DNA from: Planctomycetaceae bacterium
Lineage (GTDB): Bacteria > Planctomycetota > Planctomycetia > Planctomycetales > Planctomycetaceae
Assembly (NCBI GenBank): GCA_014762625.1
Contig: JABURQ010000174.1
Coordinates: forward strand, 1 to 64,000
Reading direction: 5' to 3'
DNA: 64,000 nucleotides
The position numbers and the translations under genes were made by a program. The stretch's first letter is position 1, and each line of letters starts with the position of its first letter. Positions 37,560 through 44,936 of the stretch are shown here, piece by piece. Under the pieces are notes generated by a model. The model did not search any database. It was not told the DNA's origin and saw nothing but the letters and a program-made list of their open reading frames with translations.

Positions 37560-39722
37560 CTATTTCTGACGTTCGCGCATCACGGCCCGAAAGACACGGT
37601 CGAATAGCTTGGCGTCTTCCTCATAATTCCCTGTATTCGTGAGATCACGCATTTTCATATGCGGTCCGGAAACGGGTGAGGATTGCGAATCGACCCGGTC
37701 CGATTGGGATGAGGCCGATTCCTCAGGTTGTTGGGCGTTATAGCGATTGAGATTCGCTGGTTGGTCCGCTTCCTCTTCAGTCGGTTTCCAGGAGATCGGG
37801 AACATCGGCTGAGCCGTCGTGGGATGCGCCTGGTCTATGCGTAGTTTTTGCCCGACCGGAGGTTGATAGGGATTCGCCTCGCTCGACGATTGTGGCACAT
37901 CCGTGGCGGCGTCGATTTCGGGAGGTTCGACTTGATCGGCCAGGGCCGAGTGACGAACCCTGCGAGCTTGTTCCTGTAGTAGTTCTCGCATCAATGGGCT
38001 GTCCATGATGGACTGCGGGATCGATTTCATCGGTTCCGGGCGAGAGGGCTCGGAAACGGATTCCAGAACATCGGACTCTTCCGCAGGCATGACGTCTTCC
38101 ACAATGGTCGCCGGAGGCTCCTCGACAACATCCACCTTCCGAGGTTCCTCCTTGGTGACGTCAGCTTCCGGTTCGACGGTTTTCTCAGGAAGAACGTTTT
38201 CGGGGGCGGCTGTCGGTTCGGCGTGGCTTGCTGCCAGTTCCTCAGGCGGAACTGTTTCCGTCTGCGGCGAGTTGGAAGAATCGATGGGTGATTCTTCGAT
38301 CGTCGCAGTCGCAGCAACCCAGGGTTGGCGGTCGTGAGACGTTTGCACCGTTTCGCTGTCTGGTTGGTCGCTGGCGACATATCGCTTTAACATTCTCGCC
38401 GACTGACGTTCGCGAATGAACCAGGCGACTCCGAACAGGGAAACGATAATCAGAAAGCTCACCAGATACGTCGTCTGCTGGGAAGAGAGCAGAGCGTTTG
38501 GTTTGTCGTTTGCAGGAATGGTCAGATCGAGCACTTCGCCGGCAGGCATCTCTGTGTCACTCGATTCCATTTCCTGGAAGGCTTGCTGGAAGGCTTGCTG
38601 GAAGGCGTCAAACTGCTCGGCGTCGTCCATTTGAGTTGTTAGTTCCGCCGGTGATTCAGAAGTCTCTTCGGACAACGTTGAAGACTCGGGTGATGAGGCG
38701 GTCTCGACTGACTGGGAGGACGACTGCGTGGGCTGTTCCCGAACGCGGGCGTTGATTTTGGGAAGTGACGCTTCGCCGACATATTCGACGGATCGGATGG
38801 GAGACTCATTCGAGGCGACTTTCCAATTCTCCGAGCCTGTCACTCGAACGGCGGGCGGCAACTCGGGGAGTCTGTCGCGGGCGATTGATTGCGGTTGAAA
38901 CGTCAGAATCGTTCCGGAAAGAATCGTGTTCGGGGCCATTTCCGCCTGAGCGGGGATGGACTTGGCATTAGGCGGCGGTGTGTTGACCAGTCCTGCCATC
39001 GCCGAAATATCCTGTTGCATCAATTCCAGCAGCCCCGCCAGCCGTGCGTTTTCCGGCTTGACTGTAAACAGCACAGGGCGATCGAGAATGTTCAGTAGAA
39101 CGATTTGGGTAGGGGCATTGAGATCGTTGAGCGAGCGACCGGAATCGTTTAGGCCCAGGTTCTGGTAATATTTGATTGGAGTTTCCGCCAGCAGGATGTC
39201 GCCGTCGGCAAACTGAAATTGAAGATCGCGTCGCGGCTCGAGCTCCTGGCGTTTCAAGCCCGCAGGGGTTTGGCGAAAGAGGTAAAATTCGCGACCGCTG
39301 TAAGAAGTCAGCCCGCCGGCGTATTCGCCGATCAGTTGTTCGAAGGACGGCAGCTCGTGGGTAAACTCAAACACGCCCGGCTTACCGACCTGTCCGATCA
39401 CGGTGATGTATTTGGACTTCTTCTCCGAGATCGCCGTCTGGACTCTGCTGTTGTCAGTTTGATCGTCGCTCTCGGTCGACGAATAAAAAGGGCTTTCGTC
39501 CTGAGCGGGCGTTTTTTGACTGGGAGCCGGGGAAGACTTCTCCGGGACAGGCGTCTGTTCGGCGGCAGCCGAGGTGTCACCTTTAGGGGATTGAATCACC
39601 GACATTTTCCCGCCACCGGAATTGCCAATCACGTTGTTCGATTGCGCGGAGAGCCGGTCAGCTCCCGACACGAGCACGAGGATCAGAGAAAACAACGATA
39701 ATCGGACGAGCGGACGCGTCAT
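37560..39722 (-). CDS. Exported membrane protein with SLBB-like domain and repeat-rich tail
   Basis: A 720-residue protein. Residues 1-27 are a signal peptide; then a Ser/Pro/Gln-rich linker. The segment KYITVIGQVGKPGVFEFTHELPSFEQLIGEYAGGLT is SLBB-like (as in polysaccharide export proteins). One membrane helix lies near residue 430 (TTYLVSFLIIVSLFGVAWFI), followed by a 260-residue Pro/Glu/Ser-rich tail on the other side. Just before the helix a 12-base tandem repeat encodes repeated FQQA units. The ATG at 39722 has AAAAGGGG upstream; the one at 39755 adds eleven residues without benefit. Bitopic architecture suggests a link between envelope and cytoplasm, but no function can be assigned. Confidence 0.75.
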   Translation of the reverse strand: MTRPLVRLSLFSLILVLVSGADRLSAQSNNVIGNSGGGKMSVIQSPKGDTSAAAEQTPVPEKSSPAPSQKTPAQDESPFYSSTESDDQTDNSRVQTAISEKKSKYITVIGQVGKPGVFEFTHELPSFEQLIGEYAGGLTSYSGREFYLFRQTPAGLKRQELEPRRDLQFQFADGDILLAETPIKYYQNLGLNDSGRSLNDLNAPTQIVLLNILDRPVLFTVKPENARLAGLLELMQQDISAMAGLVNTPPPNAKSIPAQAEMAPNTILSGTILTFQPQSIARDRLPELPPAVRVTGSENWKVASNESPIRSVEYVGEASLPKINARVREQPTQSSSQSVETASSPESSTLSEETSESPAELTTQMDDAEQFDAFQQAFQQAFQEMESSDTEMPAGEVLDLTIPANDKPNALLSSQQTTYLVSFLIIVSLFGVAWFIRERQSARMLKRYVASDQPDSETVQTSHDRQPWVAATATIEESPIDSSNSPQTETVPPEELAASHAEPTAAPENVLPEKTVEPEADVTKEEPRKVDVVEEPPATIVEDVMPAEESDVLESVSEPSRPEPMKSIPQSIMDSPLMRELLQEQARRVRHSALADQVEPPEIDAATDVPQSSSEANPYQPPVGQKLRIDQAHPTTAQPMFPISWKPTEEEADQPANLNRYNAQQPEESASSQSDRVDSQSSPVSGPHMKMRDLTNTGNYEEDAKLFDRVFRAVMRERQK
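38574..38606. repeat. 12-base tandem repeat in the coding sequence
   Basis: The unit CTGGAAGGCTTG occurs twice perfectly plus nine bases of a third copy. On the minus strand it encodes repeated FQQA in the SLBB-like protein. It is a likely site of length variation between strains, always in multiples of four residues. Confidence 0.85.
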
Positions 39723-40049
39723 CACGTGCCCCTTTTTTCGGAGGACAATTCCCACACAACCTCGGCGCGAGGTTCGCTATAATCCTTAAAATCGGCACAA
39801 TCTCACTCCGACCTGAGCCCGAATTTTGAATTCGCGGCAAAGAAACCGAAAAATACGACAGTCCTAACTCCTTGTCTGGACGGCAAATACGAGTGAGTGG
39901 ACGTCAGAGCTGAACGGGGACATAATGAGATTAGAGACCCGTGAATTCGCAGCGTGTGAGCTAGGTTACTGATCTGAAGTCGGGAACTCTCAAAATCAGA
40001 GAACAGAACTTCGGTCAAATTCAATGCATTCAAATACTGAGGACGATTT
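39723..40049. other. Divergent intergenic region upstream of the Cys-rich peptide operon
   Basis: No gene is visible. The region must hold the promoters of the SLBB-like gene (minus strand) and the Cys-rich precursor (plus strand). I found no convincing sigma-70 or ECF promoter by eye. The precursor ATG at 40050 has GAGGA 7 bases upstream. Confidence 0.55.
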
Positions 40050-40508
40050 ATGAAACGGAATGAACTCAATCGCAGAGATTTCAGTAAATGGTCGGTCGCC
40101 GCGCTCGGCGGACTGGTCGCCGGAACAACCGCCGGTTGCGGCGGAAACGCCGAAACCCCGACGGGAGGAGACGCTGGCGGCGAATCATCTGATGCGGCCG
40201 GACCTGAGACGACGGAAGTCGCCGCACATGCCTGTCGCGGATTGAATGATTGCAAAACGGCCAGCAATGAATGCCGAGGCCAGGGGACCTGTGCCACCGA
40301 GGCCTGGCACCACGATTGTGCAGGCATGAATGACTGCAAAGGGCAAGGTGGTTGTGGAGAAAATCCGCTCGCCAATACATGTGAGGGAAAAGGAAGCTGT
40401 GCTATTCCTTTGATGGATGCGGCTTGGGATAAAGCCCGCAAGAGTATGGAAGCCAAGTGGGAGGAAGCCGGCAAAGAGTTCGGTTCCGCTCCCGCCCAGG
40501 CCAGCTGA
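40050..40508 (+). CDS. Tat-exported Cys-rich peptide, likely precursor of a bufferin-like modified peptide
   Basis: A 152-residue protein. The N-terminus has a twin-arginine signal (RRDFSKW, residues 8-14), a hydrophobic stretch and a possible lipobox ending TTAGC with Cys30. A Gly/Ser/Asp linker leads into a core (residues 62-117) with nine cysteines arranged in five CxGxxxC units: CRGLNDC, CRGQGTC, CAGMNDC, CKGQGGC and CEGKGSC, two of which share Cys96. A charged helical tail (KARKSMEAKWEEAGKEF) ends it. The next genes encode a DUF692 (MNIO) enzyme and its DUF2063 partner, which modify Cys in such precursors in known RiPP systems. It could become a periplasmic or membrane-tethered copper- or iron-binding peptide; the metal and the modification are inferred. 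Confidence 0.85.
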   Translation: MKRNELNRRDFSKWSVAALGGLVAGTTAGCGGNAETPTGGDAGGESSDAAGPETTEVAAHACRGLNDCKTASNECRGQGTCATEAWHHDCAGMNDCKGQGGCGENPLANTCEGKGSCAIPLMDAAWDKARKSMEAKWEEAGKEFGSAPAQAS

Positions 40509-40541
40509 TCCTATTTTGGGAGAAGCGGTCGAATCAAACTG

Positions 40542-40576
40542 GGGACCGGGGACGTGTTGTCTCGGTCCCTTTTTTT
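40542..40576 (+). terminator. Intrinsic terminator/attenuator between precursor and modifying genes
   Basis: GGGACCG (40542-40549 region) and CGGTCCC form a strong stem with inner GAC/GTC pairs, followed by seven T at 40570-40576. It lies 34 bases after the precursor stop and 39 bases before the DUF692 start. It would give much more precursor mRNA than enzyme mRNA, with partial read-through. Confidence 0.8.
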
Positions 40577-40614
40577 GTCATTGAAATATGTCATTGTGAA
40601 CAGGAGCGTCGATC

Positions 40615-41544
40615 GTGGCTGCGGAAGCACGCTTGGGGCATCCGAATCTGGGCCTGGGGGTCGGATTACGGCATGTCCATTTCCGACACATTACGGAGAA
40701 CTGGCCCGACGTGGACTGGTTTGAGGTGATCTCCGAAAACTTTATGGACACACGGGGACGCCCGCGCGATATTCTGGACCGGGTCGCCGAACGCTATCCG
40801 GTCGTGATGCACGGCGTCTCGATGTCGATCGGAAGTACCGATCCCTTGAATCGGGACTACCTCGCGCGGCTGAAACGTCTCGCGGACGACATTCAGCCAG
40901 TCTGGATTTCCGACCATGTCTGCTGGACGGGAGTTGCCGGACGGAATTCGCACGACCTGTTACCGATCCCCTATAACGAAGAATCGTTGTCGCACGTGGT
41001 GCAGCGGATCCGCACCGTGCAGGAGATCCTCGAACGTCCGCTGGTGCTCGAGAATCCGAGCAGCTACGTCACGTTTCAGGATTCCACGATGAGCGAGTGG
41101 GAGTTCATCACGCGGATGGCGGAGGAAGCCGATTGCGGACTCCTGCTCGACGTCAATAATGTCTACGTCTCCGCTTACAACCACGATTTCGATCCCGACG
41201 TATTTCTGCAATCCCTACCCCACGAACGGATCGTGCAATTCCATCTGGCCGGGCATTTGAACTGCGGCACTCACTGCATCGACACGCATGACGGCCGCGT
41301 GATCGATGACGTCTGGGAGCTGTACCGAAAAGCGCACGAGTTAACGGGAGGCGTCTCGACATTGCTGGAATGGGACGCCAACATTCCCTCTTTCGATGAG
41401 ATGCACGCCGAAGTTCTCAAAGCGCGTCAGTTCCTCCAAGGGGGGACCTCCGGTCGTGTCCCGCAAGAGAAAGACGTCAGCGATCACGACACTTCCACCG
41501 TGCCACATCCGATTAACTATTACGTGGGGTCGGAGGCGGAATGA
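40615..41544 (+). CDS. DUF692 (MNIO) multinuclear iron oxygenase, BufB-like
   Basis: A 309-residue TIM-barrel DUF692 protein. These MNIO enzymes use two or three iron ions and oxygen to rebuild cysteine residues of precursor peptides (MbnB, TglH and the bufferin enzyme BufB). Candidate metal ligands match the family: WFEVISENF (Glu37, Glu41), VMHGVSM (His66), ISDHVCW (His101), LVLENPSSY (Glu146), [15 protein letters not shown] (Asp179, Asn181, His190), QFHLAGH (His210, His214), DTHD (Asp223, His225) and LLEWD (Glu252). The GTG start at 40615 has AGGAG 8 bases upstream. It overlaps the downstream DUF2063 gene by 4 bases. The reaction on its Cys-rich substrate is inferred. Confidence 0.94.
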
Positions 41545-42413
41545 ATCAGCATTCACCGCGCTCGCTAGAGTCGCTCCAGCAGTGGTTTCAATCGGTCATC
41601 ACGCATCCCGAAGGAGTCCCGGCGGGGATCGAATCGGCGCGCGGGCTGATTGACATCTCGACCGACGATCTGGGATCCGTGGTTCCTGATTGCGGTCAAC
41701 TCGACGCCCTCGGCAAGGTGCAGGTCTATGGCAACGCCTACTTCGCCCGCTTGATAGAATGTCTCGGGGAAGAGTTCCCCGCCGTCAAAACCGCTCTCGG
41801 CGACGAGACGTTTCAGTCCTTCGCCTTTTCGTACCTTCAGCAATGTCCCTCCATCAGTTACACCCTGGCCGACCTCGGACGCCGGTTTCCCGAGTTCCTC
41901 GAACAGACCAAACCGCACGACGCGGGGGAACTCGGCTGGGCCGACTTTCTGATCGACCTCGCCCGTCTCGAATGGCACTACAGCGAAATCTTCAACGCGG
42001 CGGGAACCGAGACGACTCCCACTCTCTCCCCCGAAAGGCTCCAGACTCTCACACCCGAGCAATTCGCTTCCTGTCGATTGCAACCCGCTCCCTGTGTGCG
42101 GCTCGACCAGTTTCGTTTCCCGGTTCACGAGTACGCGACGGCGATCCGCAAGAAACAGGAATCGCCCCCCTTTCCCCAGCCGGAGACGACTTTTCTGGTG
42201 ATGACCCGTCGTCATTACATCGTCCGGCGGGTATCGGTCAGCGAAGCGGAATATTCGGTGCTGCAAGCGATTCTGCAGTCCGGCAACGAACCGATTGGAG
42301 CGATTCTCGATCGGGCGTCCGAGCAGTGGTCAGCAGCGATGCAACGCGACCTGCAATCGTGGTTTGCCAACTGGTCCGCGGCCGGTTATTTCGTCACGGT
42401 TGAAGAGGTGTAA
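41541..42413 (+). CDS. DUF2063 (HvfC/BufC-like) partner protein
   Basis: A 290-residue protein. The N-terminal half is the DUF2063 domain that assists MNIO enzymes: [77 protein letters not shown]. The C-terminal half contains [16 protein letters not shown]-type helices and a mixed alpha/beta region. In known systems the partner recognises the leader of the precursor peptide and presents it to the enzyme. Its ATG overlaps the DUF692 stop, so the two are made in fixed ratio. It completes the three-gene set precursor-DUF692-DUF2063. Confidence 0.9.
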
Positions 42414-42659: not shown

Positions 42660-44936
42660 TCACTGGCTTTGCAGTTGCTGGAGGTACGTGATCCGCAGAG
42701 GGGTCAAACCCGATTGAGGATCGATTTGCTGACTTTGAGTCAGTGCTTGAACGGCAACCGCATGGTCTCCAACTTCGATCGCCACACACCCCAGGTAAAA
42801 CAAAAGCTCTGATCGCAATTCCAGCGGCAGATTCCCTTGCTCGACCAGAGAGTACATCGACTTGGCGAGTTCCTCCAGTGGTTGATCCAGTGAGGAGAGA
42901 ATCACAGAGTAAAACGGTCTGTGGGTCGGATCGAGATGCTCAATCTGATCGCGAGCCGCTACGGTGTTTCCCGCTCTCAAATAAAAACGGATCAAACCCT
43001 CTTCACTCATTTCACTGTAATCAGTGCGTTCAGGTGGATTTGCCTCAAAATCTTTTTCCGTAACGAATGATGGGAAGAGTTGCTCTGCGACCGGTTCCAG
43101 TTCCAATCCTCGAAGACTCACAAGCAATCGTTCGGATTCCCGACTCGTCCAGCGTTTTTGTGCTGCCAGATTGCGAATCAACGTCAGGGCACGATATTCG
43201 TCCAGCAATGAATGCTGACCGGTGTTTCGATGCACTCGATAGGATAGCTCCAGGTAGGACCATGCCTGAATTTTTCGACTTTCGATCGACTGCTCAACCG
43301 GAAGCAAGTGGAGGGCTGCATAGGGAAGTCGAATCGAGTTCATGGCTCCCGCGATTTGCGTCGCCTCTGCTGGCGTTGAAGCGGCGATCACTTGGGGAGC
43401 AGGGGGGGGAGTCTGTGGCCCGGGCCATTCCAGGTTCAGAAATGTTCGACCGGCAGTTTGGACCTGTTGCCTGAAAGTGGGATCATCAGCATGTCCGAAA
43501 TAAGTCGCCTGTCCATCAATGCCTATCATTTTCCAATGAGGACTCAGCGAGAGGTCCCGAATCGCATCCTGTTCTGCGGTATCTGCAACGACTAACAGAG
43601 GTTTCCAGTCTTTGATTCGATGTAAGTAACCCCCGAAATTCTGGTCCGTACGAAAATATAACAACGCTCGCATCTCTTTGAGATCGCGTGTCAATGCTGC
43701 ATATTCTGCGTAGTCTTGTCCGTAAAGATCCCACCGGTTATCGATGACGGGGGGATACTGTTCCGTCGTTTGAACATCAAGCCATTCGGAACAGCGGTCA
43801 AGATCGAGCAGCAGAGCGGGGCCCTCGCTCTTCCATTCCAGAGGATCGATTCGATGTACCGCCAATGTACCTTCGAAAAGATATTGACGAACGATTGTTC
43901 CCGGCCCCGACAGTTTTAACAGGCAGACTCCAGCGATCGAAAGAGTTGCCCCGACACGCATCATTTTTACACGCTTTATGGAAATCCCCGATCTTTCCTC
44001 GATTGAAGAGGTAGTGCTTAGACAGAGCAGAGAAGCCACAACACTCAGCCAGAGATAGTATCCACAAAGCAGACCGAGCAGAGTGAACAGGAACAGACAA
44101 GTGACGACAGTCAGAGGCCTGTCGATTCCTGATATCGCGTGGTACCAACACGTCAGAAGAGTCAGCACGAGCATCATATGCTCGAGCGTCGGAACACCTG
44201 ATCCAAATACAGGGGTCAGGGAGTCCAACAACTCTGGATAGACAGGAGTCGTCACCGCGCTCCAGGGACGTAGCAGTGTTTTCCAAAGGCCGGTCGCCAT
44301 ACCTCCGGTGAAGAGCAAAAGGAAGCTGCCTACGGTTCCCAAAAAACCAGATTGCACAAACCGTCTTTGGGAGTCTCCGGTAAGCCACCATGGAATGAAG
44401 AGTATAATCCAGAACAGACATACGATACTGATTTCGAGCGTTGTGAAAACTGCGATCGCAACAATGAGTATCAACAACGGCCCCACGAATTTATCCTGTG
44501 TGTCACTTCGAGCACGCAGCAAGACATACAGAAGTGCTAGAAGAAGCAGTGCCGTCAGCATATGCCAATCTTCAAACCCGTAACTGAGAGAGATCAGTGC
44601 GATTATTGCCGTACCCGTTCCAATACGCGCCGCCAATGATTGGGCCAGAAATCCAATGCAGAGTGAACCCAGGCAAACCATCAAAGGATAAGCGATGCTT
44701 CCCCAATTCCGGGTCCACTCAATCTGAGTTGCCGGAATGTGCCAATCTCCCGGTTCGCTGAGAATTGTCTGCCCCGTCGTCGGCATCAGAATTGACCGTC
44801 CACTCGGCAAGGAAGGGTGAAAGCTGAGAATGACTAACCCGGAGAGCAAGCACCACCGAATAGGGATTTTGTATCTCTGTCGGACGTCCTCAGGCTTGCG
44901 GGAATCGACCGTAGGTCTGTGCGTGGTATGATTCAT
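42660..44936 (-). CDS. Large multi-pass membrane protein with C-terminal TPR-like domain
   Basis: A 758-residue protein. About ten membrane helices occupy residues 25-350 (for example LLLLALLYVLLRARS, FVGPLLILIVAIAVFTTLEISIVCLFWIILFIPWWL, FLFTLLGLLCGYYLWLSVVASLLCLS), giving a layout like that of GT-C glycosyltransferases or O-antigen ligases, although I see no catalytic motif. A soluble middle domain (about 370-520) and a TPR-like tail follow (LIRFYLRAGNTVAARDQIEHLDP, LLFYLGCVAIEVGDHAVAVQALTQSQQIDPQSG). It is one base downstream of the seven-heme cytochrome gene and surely cotranscribed. Function is unknown. Confidence 0.7.
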   Translation of the reverse strand: MNHTTHRPTVDSRKPEDVRQRYKIPIRWCLLSGLVILSFHPSLPSGRSILMPTTGQTILSEPGDWHIPATQIEWTRNWGSIAYPLMVCLGSLCIGFLAQSLAARIGTGTAIIALISLSYGFEDWHMLTALLLLALLYVLLRARSDTQDKFVGPLLILIVAIAVFTTLEISIVCLFWIILFIPWWLTGDSQRRFVQSGFLGTVGSFLLLFTGGMATGLWKTLLRPWSAVTTPVYPELLDSLTPVFGSGVPTLEHMMLVLTLLTCWYHAISGIDRPLTVVTCLFLFTLLGLLCGYYLWLSVVASLLCLSTTSSIEERSGISIKRVKMMRVGATLSIAGVCLLKLSGPGTIVRQYLFEGTLAVHRIDPLEWKSEGPALLLDLDRCSEWLDVQTTEQYPPVIDNRWDLYGQDYAEYAALTRDLKEMRALLYFRTDQNFGGYLHRIKDWKPLLVVADTAEQDAIRDLSLSPHWKMIGIDGQATYFGHADDPTFRQQVQTAGRTFLNLEWPGPQTPPPAPQVIAASTPAEATQIAGAMNSIRLPYAALHLLPVEQSIESRKIQAWSYLELSYRVHRNTGQHSLLDEYRALTLIRNLAAQKRWTSRESERLLVSLRGLELEPVAEQLFPSFVTEKDFEANPPERTDYSEMSEEGLIRFYLRAGNTVAARDQIEHLDPTHRPFYSVILSSLDQPLEELAKSMYSLVEQGNLPLELRSELLFYLGCVAIEVGDHAVAVQALTQSQQIDPQSGLTPLRITYLQQLQSQ

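Follow-up and report, generated by a model that had tools for sequence, protein, structure and literature searches.

The window, by which we mean the whole 64,000-nucleotide stretch analysed here, carries three open reading frames in the order precursor, DUF692 protein, DUF2063 protein, just where the first-pass annotation had placed them. We refer to them as bufA, bufB and bufC; by the open reading frame calls all three lie on the forward strand, and their order is that of the Buf2 (BufA2) bufferins. The features of the locus are as follows.

39898..39926, + strand: putative promoter-like site upstream of bufA, TGGACG-17-CATAAT, a consensus match
40050..40508, + strand: bufA, Buf2-like RiPP precursor of 152 aa with an ATG start; open reading frame with a match to NF050166 BufA2
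40068..40088, + strand: twin-arginine motif NRRDFSK, residues 7-13 of BufA; RRxF in 86/87 rows of the window's BufB clade
40095..40136, + strand: hydrophobic stretch of the signal peptide (residues 16-29) containing AxxG at A18-G21, a candidate BufBC recognition site
40128..40139, + strand: lipobox-like TAGC, residues 27-30; 68% of 94 aligned precursors have Cys at this position
40233..40400, + strand: nine-Cys core, C62 to C117; nine Cys columns 97–100% conserved in the 94
40416..40466, + strand: conserved C-terminal segment with W126 and R130, from the alignment of 94
40541..40570, + strand: intrinsic-terminator-like hairpin of 11 pairs with a T run, in the bufA-bufB gap
40615..41544, + strand: bufB, MNIO (DUF692) maturase with a GTG start; NF050167, PF05114 and PDB relatives
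41541..42413, + strand: bufC, DUF2063 partner that shares 4 bases with the 3′ end of bufB; PF09836, with NGO1945_C just under its cut-off

The flanking genes (37560-39755 and 42660-44936) are both on the reverse strand, and neither gave a match in Pfam or NCBIfam at E values up to 0.001. The description of a self-contained set is supported by sequence. In profile searches BufB scored 366.3 bits against NF050167 (MNIO_BufB), over the cut-off of 310, and 369.5 bits against PF05114, and a sequence search of the PDB returned 3bww, 8hci and MbnB entries as relatives. BufC reached 68.8 bits with the DUF2063 model PF09836 (cut-off 27.2), which makes it a DUF2063-RRE partner (PME-type 1) of the kind found in captophorins; it scored 26.5 bits against NGO1945_C, just below the cut-off of 27, and 60.4 bits against NF050145 (HvfC), below the cut-off of 142. 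The PDB sequence search with BufC gave three matches, the best at an E value of 0.014 and none convincing as a relative, and an AlphaFold2 model of BufC built from 3 sequences was unusable (mean pLDDT 40.5). A maturase over its curated cut-off, a DUF2063 protein and the order A-B-C bear out the earlier view of a bufferin-like RiPP set. The same genome holds a second, distant MNIO gene (L002, G000:C189:42951-43739), 32% identical to BufB, beside a 249-aa open reading frame and another that by eye resembles a type II/IV secretion ATPase.

BufA begins with MKRNELNRRDFSKWSVAALGGLVAGTTAGC, which comprises the RRxF motif, a hydrophobic segment and the lipobox-like TAGC. A linker joins this signal to a core with Cys at C62, C68, C75, C81, C90, C96, C102, C111 and C117. 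In the alignment of 94 precursors with RRxF, six of these Cys columns are conserved at 100% and three at 97–99%; exactly nine core Cys occur in 75 of 93 RRxF precursors and twelve in 6. Beyond the core, W126 and R130 are kept in 90% and 91% of the 94, and a helix spanning residues 123-139 appears only in a low-confidence model (pLDDT 53–61 there), the AlphaFold2 prediction of BufA from 6 sequences being unusable overall (mean pLDDT 36.5). Against NF050166 BufA2 the precursor scored 36.6 bits (E 4e-9), below the cut-off of 60; at an E threshold of 1, 92 of 93 RRxF precursors matched the same model. Buf2 precursors have six or twelve conserved Cys and a Sec or Sec-lipoprotein signal, whereas the window's has nine and, by a sequence rule, an RRxF signal. 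Because cut-off, Cys number and signal type all depart from Buf2, the set is, on sequence grounds, a divergent variant of these bufferins and not a plain member.

Some precursors show further matches or arrangements. With PF24646 (DUF7640), 23 of 93 RRxF and 14 of 19 non-RRxF precursors gave matches under an E threshold of 1, the best of them at 7e-7. In L079 the open reading frame directly before bufB is 633 aa long from its first ATG, with a start that is ferritin-like by eye and a bufferin-type Cys core near its C-terminus. Five loci (L136, L140, L151, L158 and L070) have a second precursor between bufB and bufC, and there bufC starts 1.0–1.4 kb after bufB.

Of 392 genomes from the phylum, 82 gave BufB-family matches at an E threshold of 1e-30, 70 of these genomes with a score over the cut-off; at a threshold of 1e-70 the figure for the class was 105 of 397. 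The near relatives that bear a name, a Gimesia MAG and Blastopirellula marina, are both placed in class Planctomycetia by the NCBI taxonomy. The locus set comprised 185 loci with a BufB-like match; 14 weak matches from the phylum search and 4 from the class search fell outside it. Among the 185, L041-L049 are non-planctomycete records and L040 is titled only 'bacterium'. The core profile matched 120 loci at E below 1e-3; these became 119 on removal of L081, whose start could not be picked, and 114 distinct precursor-BufB loci once 4 duplicates and one short row were taken out. Of the 65 loci that lacked a core-profile match, 23 come from genomes with the precursor elsewhere and three (L020, L035 and L063) have fewer than 170 bases upstream of bufB; the remaining 39, nine of them L041-L049, have BufB identities of 26–64%. 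Some of those 39 carry other Cys-rich peptides (for example L023, L026, L083, L084, L091, L092 and L097), and L075, which also lacks a core-profile match, has a short RRxF peptide. The distant MNIO genes of L101-L104 and L106-L109 lie 3′ of open reading frames that are mostly membrane-protein-like, with Gly-Cys-rich C-termini, and that recall the TIGR04222 type described in the available text of PMC12452194.

Precursor and maturase travel together. A precursor profile of the Cys core (A1) matched 105 of the 397 class genomes; 102 genomes have both precursor and BufB, three have the precursor without BufB, three have BufB without the precursor and 289 have neither (Fisher p 4e-87, kinship ignored), in agreement with the expectation that the precursor is conserved with DUF692 in relatives. 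Adjacency of the three genes is common in other planctomycetes but is not universal: where a close BufB had no adjacent precursor, all 23 genomes tested carry a precursor elsewhere, two of them (G216 and G639) with a second, linked set as well. Truly missing precursors were thus rejected as an explanation of these loci. The search for distant precursors returned 26 loci, 24 with RRxF; of the other two, one is a copy interrupted by a stop codon and one is spurious, a mere fragment.

We used strict RRxF as the rule for a Tat-type signal and found it in 94 of the 114 distinct loci (93 by script, plus L146 with a corrected start); a looser Tat rule gave 101 of 119. The window's BufB clade in a quick tree (SH-aLRT 95) has 87 rows, and the sole row without RRxF, L079, is a fusion protein that lacks a signal. 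A chance RR was ruled out, since the clade is defined by BufB and not by the motif; the 100% conservation of R8, R9 and F11 in the alignment of 94 is circular, as that set was chosen by RRxF. The clade excludes 8 RRxF precursors, whose core Cys number 10 to 18, and 19 precursors without RRxF. The RRxF label changes 4 times on the BufB tree, or 3 times if the fusion L079 is left out; the 5 changes obtained with L146 counted as non-Tat compare with 19.6 in shuffles. Pseudomonadota were the only other phylum sampled (34 loci, 29 readable, 26 over the BufA2 cut-off), and in none of the 29 readable precursors did the 80 residues before the core contain RRxF.

General Tat-signal models matched about a quarter of the RRxF precursors. 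At E up to 1, TAT_signal_seq (TIGR01409) matched 23 of 93 RRxF precursors (best 6e-4) and UCR_Fe-S_N (TAT signal, PF10399) matched 26 of 93 (best 3e-4); at this threshold neither matched any of the 19 non-RRxF precursors, and the window's own BufA had no match to Tat-signal models. Over their most hydrophobic 14-mer, RRxF precursors average 1.61 (n=93) and the others 2.09 (n=19; p 3.5e-9, kinship ignored), so that RRxF precursors combine a twin-arginine motif with the mild hydrophobic segment of Tat substrates. Two of the 19, L034 and L069, carry RR then V or L, not F, and may still be Tat substrates. In the window's BufB clade, judged by the RRxF motif, a conserved Tat-type signal stands in place of a Sec signal; the first-pass annotation had called a twin-arginine signal in BufA.

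The source genome has TatC, Lgt and LspA. A search for TatC in 34 planctomycetal genomes succeeded in 33. The exception, G146, is an RRxF genome with 85% completeness; G199, also RRxF, gave only a 28-position fragment. Every one of the 19 genomes whose precursors lack RRxF has a TatC match (in G312 as two fragments), so the type of signal cannot be put down to a lost Tat machinery, and we rejected such loss as the cause of the non-RRxF lineages. In the source genome tatC and lspA are adjacent and convergent (G000:C158:52318-53979).

A lipobox-like site is present, by a loose rule, in 60 of 93 RRxF precursors. Thr at lipobox position -3 is unusual, and the window's TAGC has it. The idea that the peptide leaves the cell went too far: the site suggests that many RRxF precursors, the window's included, are membrane-anchored outside the cytoplasm, and BufA is probably exported as a lipoprotein.

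Within the signal, the AxxG motif is common to both precursor types. A18 and G21 are each conserved at 99% in the 94 aligned RRxF precursors, and the motif with L, M, I, V, F, A or T as its next residue is present in 91 of 93 RRxF precursors and in all 19 others. In the stretch of 18 residues that surrounds the hydrophobic segment it was found in 91 and 18 precursors respectively, against 40.2 and 7.0 expected from residue shuffles. AxxG is thus a candidate recognition site for BufBC, and in our reading the n-region may have switched between Sec and Tat types while AxxG was kept as what BufBC recognises. Common descent also adds to the conservation of AxxG and of its spacing from RR.

The hairpin between bufA and bufB recurs at related loci. 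Among 77 RRxF loci with a gap of 40–400 bases, 43 have a stem of at least 8 pairs followed by a T run, where dinucleotide shuffles predict 4.1; the corresponding figures for non-RRxF loci are 3 of 17 and 0.7. A looser, energy-based hairpin rule gave 41 of 77 against 16.0 expected and 2 of 17 against 1.1. A terminator at this position predicts a bufA transcript in excess of the bufBC transcript, that is, more precursor mRNA than maturase mRNA, and would be a simple means to set the ratio of the two. Upstream of bufA, consensus matches to a promoter number 2 in the region against 1.0 expected; the putative promoter-like site includes CATAATGA, kept in the two nearest relatives. Farther upstream, at 39758-39783, the palindrome AACCTC-GGCGC-GAGGTT precedes a TATAAT; most of this block recurs in the same two relatives, and it may act in transcription of the divergent neighbour or of a longer bufA mRNA.

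Several known systems resemble this one in part. Buf2 (Buf_6/12Cys, BufA2), whose copper function was described in C. vibrioides (PMC12452194, in the parts available), shares the precursor-MNIO-DUF2063 order, the C-x-G-x-N-x-C-K repeats and a BufB over the curated cut-off; the window's set differs in its Tat-type signal, its conserved C-terminal segment and its BufA2 score, and most RRxF precursors differ in their nine core Cys. The captophorins fontiphorin, oxazolin and gonophorin (MNIO-PME1; PMC13097082, available text) likewise combine an MNIO, a DUF2063 partner and a Cys-rich precursor with Cys-Lys motifs, without a Tat-type signal as here. For Cys-Lys MNIOs that text reports Asp after the catalytic Asp, whereas 87 of 94 RRxF loci (and 8 of 20 non-RRxF loci) have Ala at that position, which counts against a simple transfer of the published Cys-Lys chemistry. 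The RiPP-lipoprotein hybrids DybA and NedA pair a lipobox with MNIO modification, where BufA has a lipobox-like site and would have the modification, but are described in the accessible part of PMC12636315 with a usual lipoprotein signal. Csp1 copper storage proteins are Cys-rich copper binders with a Tat signal and possibly pre-export loading, and BufA would share the copper binding; Csp1 is a four-helix bundle and not a RiPP (PMC7558416, PMC6747150, both as available).

We think it rather likely that BufA is a copper-buffering, Buf2-like captophorin, matured in the cytoplasm, exported by Tat and, in the window, probably a lipoprotein. BufB and BufC would recognise BufA in the cytoplasm through its signal peptide, probably by AxxG, and would oxidise its core Cys, 5-thiooxazoles being the likeliest outcome. 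In published work this is the group that MNIO-PME1 enzymes form from Cys, and their products are tied to copper (PMC12452194, PMC13097082, available portions), Buf1 itself carrying thiooxazoles (PMC12452194, available text). The Tat translocase would read RRxF and export the modified peptide in place of Sec. Lgt and LspA would then anchor the window's version by Cys30 as a periplasm-facing lipoprotein, and the anchored BufA would bind excess copper in the periplasm. The bufA-bufB terminator would keep precursor mRNA above maturase mRNA.

Other readings of the same evidence were weighed. RRxF could be part of a leader read by BufC, with export by Sec as in other bufferins. Of the 91 RRxF precursors with AxxG, 89 place its A exactly 10 residues past RR, as expected of a composite recognition element, and so constant a distance would be compatible with BufC reading RR as well; preliminary data on Buf1, in the available part of PMC12452194, also assign the signal peptide to the sequence that is recognised. 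Against this, 19 related precursors, of which 15 carry 12 core Cys, have BufB and AxxG but not RRxF, so RRxF is dispensable for this kind of BufBC; together with the Tat-model matches, confined to RRxF precursors, and their milder hydrophobic part, this leaves the leader reading unlikely. We consider it similarly improbable that the peptide handles another metal or oxidative stress. MerC fusions and gold-induced operons have led to other metals being proposed for some bufferins (PMC12452194, text available), and the two flanking genes have no family match, but the characterised relatives act on copper (PMC12452194, PMC13097082, as accessible). That BufA is an unmodified, exported Cys-rich protein which stands beside an MNIO gene by happenstance would fit the genomes with only one of the two at the thresholds used; the co-occurrence in 102 genomes, even where the genes are far apart, makes this very improbable.

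The time at which copper binds is a separate matter. Tat export implies an accepted, usually folded substrate and does not imply metal: E. coli CueO travels through Tat although it reportedly cannot take up Cu while in the cytosol (PMC6747150, available part), so a Tat signal speaks for folding control and not for metal. There is accordingly close to an even chance that Tat only delays or gates export until the Cys are modified and that copper binds outside, a sub-case of our preferred explanation that draws on the same evidence. A published discussion calls for some mechanism that prevents premature export (PMC12452194, text available). For Csp1 proteins, Cu(I) binding may precede passage through Tat (PMC6747150, available part); nothing decisive speaks against unloaded export. 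A bolder proposal, differing from it only in the time of copper binding, is that in Planctomycetia the Tat translocase serves as a RiPP quality gate: BufBC would act like a Tat proofreading chaperone, holding the signal through AxxG and RRxF, modifying the Cys and releasing a folded, Cu(I)-loaded peptide, with each exported lipopeptide a sacrificial carrier that removes cytoplasmic copper. We regard this as doubtful, at perhaps a modest chance of being right.

A literature search outside supplements and subscription papers found no paper on bufferins with a Tat signal. The main text of PMC12452194 does not contain 'tat', 'twin-arginine' or 'planctomycet', and the texts of PMC13097082 and PMC12636315 do not contain 'tat' or 'twin-arginine' as words. 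If the Tat dependence of BufA is true, no earlier natural Tat-routed RiPP precursor was found in the literature searched. Bufferins are treated as Sec-exported, and the question posed in PMC12452194, in the parts available, is what holds export until the Cys have been modified. A lineage with the same enzymes and the same AxxG but a Tat-type signal is a natural experiment on this hold-back. In a paper on lanthipeptide display it was speculated that Tat prolongs contact between a RiPP precursor and its enzyme (PMC5686179, available text); planctomycetes may prolong that contact naturally, through Tat.
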